Below, piece after piece: positions 8,268-23,914 of a DNA stretch of 26,626 nt. A program made the translations under genes and the position numbers. The stretch lies in IMG/VR virus record IMGVR_UViG_3300046328_000130, positions 1-26,626 of that record; one strand, written 5' to 3'. Positions within the stretch are counted from its first letter, which is position 1, and the number at the start of each line of letters is the position of its first letter. Source of the DNA: a virus. The notes under the pieces were generated by a model. That model made no database searches and was not told the DNA's origin. It worked only from the letters and a program-made list of their open reading frames with translations.

Positions 8268-8353
8268 AGTCATTTTGAGTTTCAGCGACAATACAAGAAT
8301 CGTAGCCCTGTGAGTACATAGGGAGCGTCACAACCTGAGTTCAGGGAAAAATC
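8268..8353 (+). promoter_or_regulatory. Structured leader with two hairpins before the 8354 gene
   Basis: This 86-base gap is the longest in the late operon. CCCTGTG-AGTA-CATAGGG (8306-8323) can form a 7-bp stem with one G-U pair. CCTGA-GT-TCAGG (8334-8345) forms a second hairpin whose 3' arm overlaps the ribosome binding site AGGGA (8343-8347) of the ATG at 8354. CCCTG of the first hairpin can also pair with CAGGG of the second, giving a competing fold. No T-run follows, so it is not a normal terminator. Translational control is inference. Confidence 0.4.
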
Positions 8354-8836
8354 ATGGCTGTATTTTCGCAAAACACCCTTACGCAAGTAAGCGGCTTCAA
8401 CAACCCAATCATTGCTGGTGAACTTGTATGGAACCAGAAAACGTATTGGAATCTCTCACTTAACACCCTTGGTGTGCCAATCAACCTGACTGGCGTAACC
8501 ATCGACGCTCAGATTGTTCGTCGTACTGTTTCAAACCTAAACGACACTCGCAATGGTTTGACATTTGATGTTGGCAACTACACCCCAACGCCAACCCCTG
8601 TTTCTCTTTCCATCACAAACCGCAATGATGCCGCAGGCTCGTTCACATTGGTAATTGATGACTCATCTTGGAGTCTGATTTCAAGCGACCCCGAGTTAGA
8701 CATCAACGCTGTTGATTGCGTTTGTTTTACTGGTCGCATCAAAATCAGCTTCCCCGCGACAACCCCAACACCCGCAGAGGACAACATCATTTTCTTGATG
8801 TTCTTGGTTCGCTCTGATGGTGTGGTTGTTGTTTAA
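8354..8836 (+). CDS. BppU-like / upper baseplate or fibre-base protein
   Basis: 160 residues. The segment G-V-P-I-N-L-T-G-V-T-I-D-A-Q-I-V-R-R (about 39-56) matches the opening of the immunoglobulin-like N-terminal domain in BppU-type baseplate proteins, where a polymer-like strand is followed by a D/N-L-T-G turn. The rest alternates hydrophobic and polar residues like a beta sandwich and ends in hydrophobic F-L-V-R-S-D-G-V-V-V-V. It precedes the large fibre gene by nine bases and likely anchors or adapts that fibre. The family resemblance is a motif-level judgement. The ribosome binding site (AGGGA) lies in a hairpin. Confidence 0.6.
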   Translation: MAVFSQNTLTQVSGFNNPIIAGELVWNQKTYWNLSLNTLGVPINLTGVTIDAQIVRRTVSNLNDTRNGLTFDVGNYTPTPTPVSLSITNRNDAAGSFTLVIDDSSWSLISSDPELDINAVDCVCFTGRIKISFPATTPTPAEDNIIFLMFLVRSDGVVVV

Positions 8837-16852: not shown

Positions 16853-17031
16853 TGAAAAAACAAGACGCAATCAAGTTGGCTGGCAGTGCCATCAAACTCG
16901 CCAAGGTTCTCGGCATCACAAAGGGTGCTGTGTCTCATTGGGGTGAAGACATCCCAAAGGGACGAGAGTATGAATTACGATACATCAAACCCGAATGGTT
17001 CGCGGTTGAAAAACAAAAGGAAAAAGCATGA
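16852..17031 (+). CDS. Cro-like helix-turn-helix regulator
   Basis: 59 residues. It has the compact Cro fold pattern: A-I-K-L-A-G-S-A-I-K-L-A-K-V-L-G (about 6-21, first helices), the turn I-T, then recognition helix K-G-A-V-S-H-W-G (24-31), and D-I-P-K-G-R-E-Y-E-L. This matches small Cro/YdaS-type phage regulators. It begins just after the operator-bearing promoter and overlaps the MazG gene by ATGA. It probably represses its own and perhaps the leftward promoter, acting as an early switch. No CI partner is seen in the window. The gap before it contains no Shine-Dalgarno motif. Confidence 0.88.
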   Translation: MKKQDAIKLAGSAIKLAKVLGITKGAVSHWGEDIPKGREYELRYIKPEWFAVEKQKEKA

Positions 17032-17339
17032 GTTCGTTTCAAGAATTAGAGTTGGCCGTCATTCGTTGGTCAGAAGCTCGAAAAATTATTCCTAACAGCA
17101 CACCGCAGGCTCAGTTCATTAAGCTTCAAGAAGAAGTCGATGAATTGCGTGATGCGTTGTTAAAAAACGATATGGAAGAAAGCGTAGATGCCATTGGAGA
17201 TTGCACTGTCGTTTTGCTAAACATCTGTGCTTTGCTTGATGTCAATTTCACTGATTGCTTGGCCCATGCTTATGAACAAATTAAAAATAGGCGTGGCACT
17301 TTGGGTAAGGATGGAATTTTCGTGAAAAGTTCTGTATGA
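17028..17339 (+). CDS. MazG-like nucleotide pyrophosphohydrolase
   Basis: 103 residues, ATGA-coupled to the Cro-like gene. The motif E-E-V-D-E (35-39) and E-S-V-D (51-54) followed by I-G-D (56-58) form the metal-binding E-E-x-x-E ... E-x-x-D set of the all-alpha NTP pyrophosphatase (MazG) family. These enzymes convert NTPs or dNTPs to NMPs plus pyrophosphate and in phages have been linked to nucleotide pools or to host stress signals. Length matches a single-domain MazG. Substrate is not readable from sequence. A structured terminator-like RNA follows directly. Confidence 0.85.
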   Translation: MSSFQELELAVIRWSEARKIIPNSTPQAQFIKLQEEVDELRDALLKNDMEESVDAIGDCTVVLLNICALLDVNFTDCLAHAYEQIKNRRGTLGKDGIFVKSSV

Positions 17340-17351
17340 TTTACACATCCC

Positions 17352-17453
17352 TTGGCGGGGAATCGCAGTAAGACTTAGACGGAGTTCTGCTGGTACTGCC
17401 CAGTCCGCCAACACCCTTAAAAAAGGTGAGAACTCCGCCTAAGTCTTTTTTTT
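17352..17453 (+). ncRNA. Pseudoknotted structured RNA ending in a terminator-like stem
   Basis: An 18-position stem (17370-17387 with 17430-17447, one A-C mismatch) encloses a 42-base loop and ends in eight T residues. Inside are two hairpins: CTGG-TACTGC-CCAG (17390-17403) and CACCCTT-AAA-AAAGGTG (17412-17428, one mismatch). The bases between them, CCGCCAA (17405-17411), pair exactly with TTGGCGG (17352-17358) upstream of the big stem, making a pseudoknot. Order of strands is P1, P2, P3, P1', P4, P2'. It lies between the MazG-like and the GIY-YIG endonuclease genes. Function is unknown; termination or attenuation is the simplest reading. Confidence 0.6.
17370..17453 (+). terminator. Intrinsic terminator formed by the outer stem
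   Basis: A long stem with AAGACTTAG on the left arm and CTAAGTCTT on the right, followed by T8 (17446-17453). The U-tract ends just before the start region of the endonuclease gene. It would limit transcription into the replication genes unless overridden. Confidence 0.75.
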
Positions 17454-17463
17454 GGACAAAAAG

Positions 17464-18210
17464 ATGACCATAAATGAATTTCATCTAAAGCATTTGACAA
17501 CAGATGATTTACGATTGATGAAAAACAGCATAACTCAAGAGCTTTCAATCAGAAGGCAAGAGGAAAGCAAGGCTAGATTTACAAAAGCAAAAAGCAAACT
17601 TGCTGCTGTTTCTTATGATGATGTGAGGTCTGTTTGTAAAGAGATTTTTACGTTTAATCGCTCGAAACCTTTACACGTTCCATCAATCTATACGTCTTCA
17701 CCTCATCAAACAAAAAAATACCTTAGTGATTTGATGAATCAGAATTGGGTCGATTTGTTTGATTGCGAAAGTGAATCTGGAAATTTTTACGTTTACGCTC
17801 ACATAGACCCAAGACAAAAAGCATTTGTTTCCGAGGTGTGTAATGGCGGAAATTGGATGGGTCAACCTTTTTACATTGGTAAAGGTTCGTCAAACAGAGC
17901 TTGGGATATGAAAAGAAACCAAGGTCATGGATTGATGATTAAACAAATTGCCAATGATGGCTACGATTTAGGCTCTATTGTAAAAATTGTTGCAAAAGGG
18001 CTTTCAGAAAAAAAGGCGCTTGAACTTGAAAGTAAATTGATTTATTTTTTTGGATTGACTTATGACAAAAGCAGGAAATTTGGATGGCTTTTGAATCTTG
18101 ATGTTCCAAAGATTCCAAATTTCAATGGATACATGATTCGATACCCAAATTTAAAAAGTGAGTCAATGCTCCAAAAAGCAAAAAACCGCTTACAAAAAGA
18201 GGTTGAATAA
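17464..18210 (+). CDS. GIY-YIG homing-type endonuclease
   Basis: 248 residues from ATG 17464 (GGA seven bases upstream); an in-frame TTG at 17452 lies in the terminator T-run and is rejected. The GIY-YIG core is complete: Y-V-Y (109-111), F-Y-I-G-K-G (136-141), R145, H155, E187/E189 in A-L-E-L-E-S, and N211 in L-L-N-L. The Y-I-G-K-G-S pattern is LEM-3-like. The N-terminal 100 residues are a separate helical domain (T-D-D-L-R-L-M-K-N-S-I) that slightly resembles H-NS oligomerisation helices. Such enzymes nick or cut DNA and spread as free-standing mobile genes. The gene looks more AT-rich than its neighbours and overlaps the next start (TAATG). Confidence 0.85.
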   Translation: MTINEFHLKHLTTDDLRLMKNSITQELSIRRQEESKARFTKAKSKLAAVSYDDVRSVCKEIFTFNRSKPLHVPSIYTSSPHQTKKYLSDLMNQNWVDLFDCESESGNFYVYAHIDPRQKAFVSEVCNGGNWMGQPFYIGKGSSNRAWDMKRNQGHGLMIKQIANDGYDLGSIVKIVAKGLSEKKALELESKLIYFFGLTYDKSRKFGWLLNLDVPKIPNFNGYMIRYPNLKSESMLQKAKNRLQKEVE

Positions 18211-19025
18211 TGGCGCGAATCAGAACAATTAAGCCAGACTTTTGGCGCGACGAATCATTGGCCTCTGTAACTCCAGAAGCAGCACTGTTGGCGATTGGAT
18301 TGCTCAACCATGCTGATGACGAAGGTTACTTCAATGCTCATCCCAAGCTCATTGAGTCAGACATATTTCCACTACGGGATCTTTCCAACACCATTACGGT
18401 AATGATTGATGAGCTTAACCGTATTGGTTACATAGAGCTATACAAGGGCTATGACGGAAAGCGATATGGTCATATCTGCAACTTTGCCAAGCACCAAGTC
18501 ATCAACAAGAAAAACCCAAGCAAAATCAAGGTTTTGTGTGAGGTGTTGGATGATTCCGTTACCACTACGGTAGTGCTACCAGTGGGAATGGAAGGGAATG
18601 GAAAGGAAAAGGAAAGGGAAAAGAAAGCAGCCAAGGCTGCGGCAACTGTCGTTGCCTGTCCACCAGATGTTGATAAACAGGTTTGGGATGATTGGGTATC
18701 GCTTCGCAAAGCAAAGAGCGCCAAGGTCACACAAACGGCTGTTGATGGCGCAAGGTCTGAGGCTGGTAAGGCTGGAATGTCCTTGGAAGACTTTTTCCGA
18801 GTTTGGTGTTTGCGCGGTTCGCAGGGTTTGATGGCTGAATGGCTAAAGCCTGACGAGCGTAAAGCCATGAGCAACAAGTTCGATGTAGCGCACACCACTA
18901 CACCGCCGCCGCCAAACCAAGACGCTGCTCTCAAGAAGATTGCGGAAGACCGAAAAAAGGCTGTGCCAATGCCTGCCGACATCAAGGCGAAGATGGCTGA
19001 ATTGACAAAGGGGATGAAGGTATGA
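18210..19025 (+). CDS. Phage replication initiation protein (winged-helix type)
   Basis: 271 residues. It opens with M-A-R-I-R-T-I-K-P-D-F-W-R-D-E, typical of phage replication organiser proteins, followed by L-L-A-I-G-L-L-N-H-A-D-D-E-G (about 26-39) and a winged helix ending G-Y-I-E-L-Y. A purine-rich linker (near 18585-18640) encodes a Lys/Glu stretch, then a C-terminal domain with V-W-D-D-W-V-S-L-R-K-A-K and F-F-R-V-W-C-L-R-G-S-Q. It likely binds the origin and recruits host helicase. No phage helicase is visible, consistent with dependence on the host. It starts in a TAATG overlap with the endonuclease gene. Confidence 0.82.
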   Translation: MARIRTIKPDFWRDESLASVTPEAALLAIGLLNHADDEGYFNAHPKLIESDIFPLRDLSNTITVMIDELNRIGYIELYKGYDGKRYGHICNFAKHQVINKKNPSKIKVLCEVLDDSVTTTVVLPVGMEGNGKEKEREKKAAKAAATVVACPPDVDKQVWDDWVSLRKAKSAKVTQTAVDGARSEAGKAGMSLEDFFRVWCLRGSQGLMAEWLKPDERKAMSNKFDVAHTTTPPPPNQDAALKKIAEDRKKAVPMPADIKAKMAELTKGMKV

Positions 19026-23590: not shown

Positions 23591-23872
23591 CAAAAACCTA
23601 GGGTGGGGGGTCGAAAAATAACCGCTTTTTTAGTGCCGTTTGATGTAAGTGCTTACTAACTTAGGTTTTGATCTAATGTAAGCACTCACTCACTTAAAGT
23701 GTGTAAAGCAAGAAACGCACCCCGCTACAGTAACCCTATAAGCCATCAAAACCGCCTACAGTGCCCCTAAAATTTCTTGTTAAGGGTTTGTATAGGGTTT
23801 ACTTAAATAAACGCTTAAACGGGTTTTAAATTGTTTGTTTTGTTAGTTGGCACTCACTAACTTAGCACCCCT
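23591..23872. other. Repeat-rich gene-free region between converging terminators
   Basis: No credible ORF is present. Since both flanking units point inward, neither needs a promoter here. Contents: a G-rich run (23611-23620); repeats at 23644, 23677 and 23850; a 9-bp inverted repeat AACCCTATA/TATAGGGTT (23732-23740 and 23791-23799); CTACAGT-N2-CCC direct repeats (23725 and 23756); AGGGTTT doublet near 23783-23798; and GTTAGT/ACTAAC (23842-23861). An origin of replication or an encoded RNA would fit. Confidence 0.5.
23644..23864 (+). repeat. Iteron-like direct repeats with G-C-A-C-T-C-A-C-T core
   Basis: Copy 1 TGTAAGTGCTTACTAACTTA (23644-23663), copy 2 TGTAAGCACTCACTCACTTA (23677-23696, 16 of 20 identical to copy 1), copy 3 GCACTCACTAACTTA (23850-23864, 14 of 15 identical to copy 2). 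Spacing between copies 1 and 2 is 33 bases, about three helical turns. Confidence 0.65.
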
Positions 23873-23899
23873 AAAAAATCCCCGCGCATGGCGGGGATT
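23873..23899 (-). terminator. Intrinsic terminator of the leftward tiny-gene block
   Basis: AATCCCCGC-GCATG-GCGGGGATT (23877-23899) is a perfect 9-bp stem. On the - strand it is followed by TTTTTT (23878-23873), so it ends leftward transcription. The + strand has no T-run here. Confidence 0.85.
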
Positions 23900-23914
23900 A
23901 CTTAGGGCTGTAAG

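Follow-up and report, generated by a model that had tools for sequence, protein, structure and literature searches.

The 26,626-nt stretch of viral DNA analyzed here (IMG/VR record IMGVR_UViG_3300046328_000130; referred to as the window) encodes an RNA that, by sequence comparison, belongs to a family of small folded RNAs not catalogued before. We favor, with moderate confidence, the view that this element forms the 5' leader of the phage's replication operon and works as a transcription attenuator, based on comparison of its relatives together with predicted folding energies and modeled geometry. The RNA lies on the plus strand, like all window features described below, between a MazG-like gene (17028-17339; Pfam PF03819, PHROG MazG-like) and a GIY-YIG-like ORF (17464-18210).

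A first-pass annotation of this locus had described a long stem, 2 inner hairpins, a 7-bp pairing and a terminal run of 8 T residues. The stem, termed P2, is indeed present as an inverted repeat, but spans 19 positions (17370-17388 and 17429-17447) rather than 18; its arms are 95% complementary, with an A.C mismatch at position 10. Both inner hairpins, P3 (CTGG-TACTGC-CCAG, 17390-17403, with stem strands 17390-17393 and 17400-17403) and P4 (17412-17428), were read correctly, as were the T8 run forming the end of an intrinsic terminator (17446-17453) and P1, an exact pairing of TTGGCGG (17352-17358) with CCGCCAA (17405-17411). Taken from the window sequence alone, the P1 match is weak evidence, as a 7-nt match arises in 7% of shuffles; the reality of P1 is settled instead by the relatives, which pair it in 98.8% of cells. 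Four features had escaped the annotation, namely the P0 hairpin (TCCC ... GGGA, 17348-17361), which was recognized from relatives and whose loop is the P1 5' strand; a second exact pairing of 6 bp, PK2, read by hand between GCAGTA (17365-17370, overlapping the first base of P2) and TACTGC, the loop of P3 (17394-17399); a -10 box, TATGAT (17335-17340), which overlaps the end of the MazG-like gene; and the tie of the RNA to the replication gene at 18210-19025. Elsewhere in the window, a 20-nt inverted repeat with a 5-nt spacer (23866-23910) is possibly another hairpin element.

A phage with an 82% identical MazG (L004) carries the same RNA plan after its MazG gene, in almost wholly different letters and followed by an HNH endonuclease gene. 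The letters common to the window and L004 served as a search pattern that was scanned against IMG/VR viral contigs, in which at least 119 stretches matched; among the matches listed, ~100 had no more than one unpaired position in the 19-position stem, and at least 82 of these were distinct sequences. Since the pattern fixed TAAG, TCTG, AGA and CTTTTTT together with the spacing of the stem arms, neither these letters nor the arm length can serve as evidence from the 82-sequence set. A second alignment comprised 23 other sequences. The letter pattern played no part in finding 21 of them, which came through a replication gene, the Manatee Spring record or a covariance-model genome search; this set was still found through similarity to the model and is not fully independent. 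In it the TAAG letters vary and the stem stays at 19 positions. More distant still is L235, which scores 48 bits to the covariance model and keeps the layout despite different letters nearly throughout: its PK2 is CCAACA/TGTTGG, and by hand reading its P2 has 21 positions and a central mismatch and is followed by T9. A central mismatch in P2, A.C in 46/82 listed relatives, is frequent without being universal. In most relatives this mismatch, usually A.C, divides the terminator stem into 2 halves of nine pairs.

The proposed structure is strongly supported by covariation. In the 82-sequence alignment of listed relatives, 96.1% of cells were paired and 32 pairs displayed double changes; none of 500 shuffles equaled the structure on any measure, and sliding it along the alignment lowered pairing to about 40%. 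All six helices covaried in these relatives, with 95.7% of cells paired for P0 (double changes in 4/4 pairs), 98.8% for P1 (4/7 pairs), 93.9% for PK2, 94.9% for P2, 99.4% for P3 (4/4 pairs) and 97.0% for P4. Corrected mutual information, which is blind to the structure, likewise ranked proposed pairs in all of its top 16 positions, those of P1 and PK2 included, and gave no third conserved pairing beyond the proposed pairs. The 23-sequence alignment was 96.6% paired, with 0/500 shuffles as good. Compensatory changes in P1 and in the inner hairpins, which the first-pass annotation had named as the check on its reading, were thus found among homologues, and its impression of an RNA more elaborate than a simple terminator was well founded. 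A plain intrinsic terminator with a decorated loop would explain the 19-position stem and the T8 run, but is already refuted by the covariation of P0, P1, PK2, P3 and P4, leaving it hardly any probability.

The strand order P1-P2-P3-P1'-P4-P2' is present in the window and covaries in relatives. It is the order of HDV-like ribozymes and, together with the 7-bp P1, had been taken to hint at a self-cleaving RNA. The anatomy does not support this catalytic reading. In every row P2' follows the closing G of P4 without a gap, leaving no joining strand to hold a catalytic C, and the P1 5' strand is not free at the 5' end of a cleavage site but forms the loop of the covarying P0 hairpin. The phage RNA also differs from HDV-like ribozymes in carrying a terminator, and no Rfam ribozyme match was found in the window or in six relatives. 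On anatomy and Rfam results combined we reject this explanation as very improbable, and rate it below the plain terminator. More generally, nothing in the window reached the gathering score of any Rfam 15 family, and six relatives yielded just three weak chance matches. One relative (L089, 11694-11769) had a sub-threshold match to the int-alpA RNA family, at 27 bits against a gathering score of 35.8. A description of the family was not found in the open-access literature searched, which does not exclude that one exists.

Signals for transcription flank the fold. In 57/79 listed relatives the best promoter -10 box sits 33-36 nt before TAAG, so that transcription would be expected to begin in the opening bases of P0. 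The TATGAT box of the window conforms to this peak as the leader's own candidate promoter, with a predicted start at ~17346; no good -35 was found for it in the window. On the minus strand of the relatives there was no comparable promoter peak, and the mean score fell below that of shuffled sequence; control by an antisense RNA from the opposite strand was rejected on these grounds. At the other end of the element, a run of at least 6 T residues is kept in 29 relatives that were not selected for it, the exceptions being L222 and L223. A Shine-Dalgarno-like GGA and the ATG of the downstream ORF (17454-17466) follow directly 3' of the T-run, and most relatives similarly have a Shine-Dalgarno-like sequence and a start codon within a few bases of theirs. 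Among the listed relatives, the next gene was co-directional in 77/77 loci with a callable downstream gene. An intrinsic terminator, composed of the 19-position stem and the T-run, therefore precedes a same-strand gene, as is expected of an attenuator.

The ORF at 17464-18210 resembles an annotated homing endonuclease of Vibrio phage MZH0603. Because it has no Pfam match at E<=0.1, its GIY-YIG name rests on the first-pass annotation and on this likeness. It lies between the leader and a replication initiation gene (18210-19025; phrog_1408 replication initiation protein, E=3.6e-40), which is the presumed regulated gene. Next genes in the relatives belong mostly to primosomal or replication initiation protein families and DUF1376; a minority encode HNH, AP2/NUMOD, zinc-binding His-Me or GIY-YIG endonucleases, and in several of these endonuclease-carrying relatives the replication gene comes after the endonuclease. 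Since other relatives have HNH genes or no insert at the same point, we regard the endonuclease of the window as an insertion. Pairs, promoter-like box, T-run and gene order all emerge directly from sequence comparison, which assigns the RNA to the replication operon and the endonucleases to insertions at one point; the leader may be their recognition site. The earlier suggestion of an attenuator for the endonuclease can thus be kept as regards attenuation, with the replication operon rather than the inserted endonuclease as the attenuated unit. In several relatives, a subclass with TGGGGAG in the loop (L004, L039, L076, L095, L119 and L124), the P0 hairpin is present a second time just after the T-run (TTGC or GGC - TGGGGA - GCAA or GCC; 3430-3446 in L004). 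This copy constitutes the Shine-Dalgarno for the HNH endonuclease gene that comes next, and its loop is also complementary to CTCCCCA of P1', which suggests an extra, translational control of the endonuclease in this subclass. The RNA also has an unannotated neighbor in the public record MW202462.1 (L221), where a replication-like ORF (1029-1727) directly follows it.

We also considered that RNA and endonuclease form a mobile unit, an idea that arose from L004. As a general rule this was rejected, as most relatives are without an endonuclease and it is the replication gene that consistently accompanies the RNA. Two Burkholderiaceae members, L222 and L223, do look like such a unit: they keep the fold, lack the T-run and precede an HNH-endonuclease-like gene, not a replication gene. 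Near-identical RNA copies without a T-run were observed in two Burkholderiaceae genomes (~8300-8500 on the minus strand of L224 and ~2510-2630 of L225), directly before related HNH-endonuclease-like genes in differing surroundings, suggestive of joint movement of RNA and endonuclease.

Predicted folds suggest how the leader may act. Before the 3' arm of P2 is included, the window RNA is predicted to form a nested hairpin of -26.2 kcal/mol, with P1 outside and PK2 inside, that holds the P2 5' arm in its loop. Once the 3' arm is present, the prediction changes to P0, P2, P3 and P4, at -39.9 kcal/mol at position 17447. Among the listed relatives, P1 was part of the predicted nascent fold in 77/81 and was joined there by PK2 in 49/81, the nascent MFE being without PK2 in 32/81, while the full-length fold contained P2 in 81/81. 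Blocking the P1 3' strand cost a mean of 4.3 kcal/mol, and P1 was favored in 80/82. Since P2 greatly exceeds the antiterminator in stability (means of -45.7 vs -26.9 kcal/mol), termination would be the default and a trigger would be needed to avert it.

PK2 abuts P2 with no linker, and P3 abuts the top of P2; in idealized A-form geometry, the 19-bp P2 strand spans 53 Å, while its end anchors lie about 21 Å apart once PK2 has formed. Because of this abutment and this discrepancy in length, PK2 and full P2 should not both form in a straight molecule, and they seem sterically incompatible; P1 without PK2 could form together with P2, giving a true pseudoknot. P1 and PK2 both covary and both cross P2, and the nascent fold uses P1; that this fold excludes the terminator, and the order in which the folds would succeed one another during transcription, we infer from geometry and energies. 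A single static double pseudoknot appears less likely than two competing folds, given that P2 and PK2 seem incompatible and that the P1/PK2 fold is the preferred one in the nascent RNA. A single pseudoknot with a sharp bend, or pairing between 2 RNA molecules, could also account for the covariation; we weigh both lower.

This geometry bears on the possibility that the element is an independent small RNA of ~110 nt that acts in trans, is transcribed from its own promoter to its own terminator, folds as a compact double pseudoknot and lies before replication genes by chance. Its own -10 box and intrinsic terminator, the strong conservation of the fold, and the retention of that fold by L222 and L223 in another setting all agree with such an RNA. 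Nevertheless, a compact fold would have to accommodate PK2 and full P2 by a sharp bend, and in most relatives the T-run leads at once into a Shine-Dalgarno and a start codon, neither of which a free RNA gene needs. We consider this explanation unlikely, albeit the foremost of the alternatives.

According to the attenuator model, RNA polymerase would begin transcription in the opening bases of P0. As long as the 3' arm of P2 is absent, the P0 loop would pair with CCGCCAA to form P1, with PK2 nested inside, and the resulting long hairpin would trap the P2 5' arm in its loop, serving as antiterminator. As the 3' arm emerges, P2 would form beside the U-run and transcription would stop, yielding an RNA of ~110 nt. 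The balance between these folds would then set how much of the replication operon is transcribed, with a protein, accumulated leader RNA or transcription speed as candidates for tipping it. One rather speculative extension is that the terminated leader is itself the signal, accumulating with the number of phage genomes; its CCGCCAA strand or UUGGCGG loop would pair with new leaders in trans and block the antiterminator, giving an RNA-only control of copy number or superinfection in which the loop variants (TTGGCGG, TTGGCAG, TTGACGG, TTGGTCG and TGGGGAG) represent specificity groups.

Alternatively, the leader might bind a ligand, a protein or RNA polymerase, in the manner of a riboswitch or of HK022 put, with a host or phage factor reading the junction letters UCUG and GAGA and the G.U pair at the foot of P3. 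These junction letters are near-invariant in most members, some of them at positions that the search pattern did not fix, and the G.U pair (59-78) is invariant. On the other hand, the diverged L235 appears to be without the UCUG and GAGA letters, the next genes come from several unrelated families, and the RNA has no separate sensor domain. Such a binding leader is a doubtful explanation, somewhat behind the trans-acting small RNA.

The searches recovered few members from annotated genomes. In annotated phage records, a blastn search with concatenated diverse members found two uncultured Manatee Spring records and no others, and the covariance model added one more (MW202520). Bacterial genomes with the RNA include Polynucleobacter sp. 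UK-Kesae-W10 (member L148) and a Pseudomonadota MAG; a pattern scan of bacterial genome contigs gave 7 matches, of which only L145 and L148 were members, and the covariance-model genome search scored 1/186 in the genus, 3/398 in the family, 2/399 in the order and 1/398 in a phylum sample. Strict filters were applied, making these annotated-phage and bacterial-genome counts lower bounds. No covariance-model match was obtained in cultured phages whose replication proteins are related (e.g. Methylophilaceae P19250A, Limnohabitans DC33 and Vibrio 1.183.O). The element therefore represents a strongly covarying RNA family that is absent from Rfam 15, almost unseen in cultured phages as far as searched, and appears to stand at the start of replication operons in many environmental phages. 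Should it prove to be an attenuator, phage genome replication would have a direct control point open to experimental test, with separable stop and go folds that could readily be incorporated into reporter constructs in laboratory strains. As a possible conserved landing site, the leader may also explain why several unrelated homing-endonuclease families occur at one spot.

Several known systems resemble parts of this arrangement. In phage lambda, the terminator tR1 lies between cro and the replication genes; it is Rho-dependent and relieved by N. The phage leader shares with tR1 its place before replication genes, and the window has a small regulator-like gene upstream, but here the terminator is intrinsic and has a conserved competing fold. 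In satellite phage P4, the replication genes are silenced by premature termination through the CI RNA and the seqA and seqC sites, CI being a processed antisense RNA that pairs with sites outside itself (PMC4825925). P4 CI and C4 RNAs resemble the present family in occupying the untranslated leader of a replication operon, in controlling replication genes through termination in that leader, and in having internal complementary segments; the difference from P4 CI is that in the window family the complementary strands both belong to a single leader, which has a strong intrinsic terminator. The C4 RNA of phages P1 and P7, a near system beside P4 CI, has an Rfam covariance model that found no match in the window or in six relatives. 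Among plasmids, the countertranscript-driven transcriptional attenuators of pT181-type rep genes, as cited in PMC10724649 (its reference 8), similarly have a rep leader in which alternative folds compete ahead of a terminator, whereas no countertranscript promoter was seen opposite the phage leader. Systems of the ColIb-P9 type act on translation and use an antisense RNA; here the switch would act at the terminator, and there is no antisense promoter peak. Both are leaders of replication genes, and the pseudoknot of the IncI-type ColIb-P9 repZ leader has a 5'-rUUGGCG-3' loop, as cited in PMC10724649 (its references 9, 18 and 19). In many members of the phage family the P0 loop likewise is UUGGCG and pairs with a downstream CGCCAA, these exact letters occurring in over half of the 82 listed rows and the other rows covarying; this likeness of motif may be convergence. 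Taken together, although the RNA is not a member of their RNA families by the tests made, the functionally nearest systems are the phage P4 CI RNA and the plasmid rep leaders.
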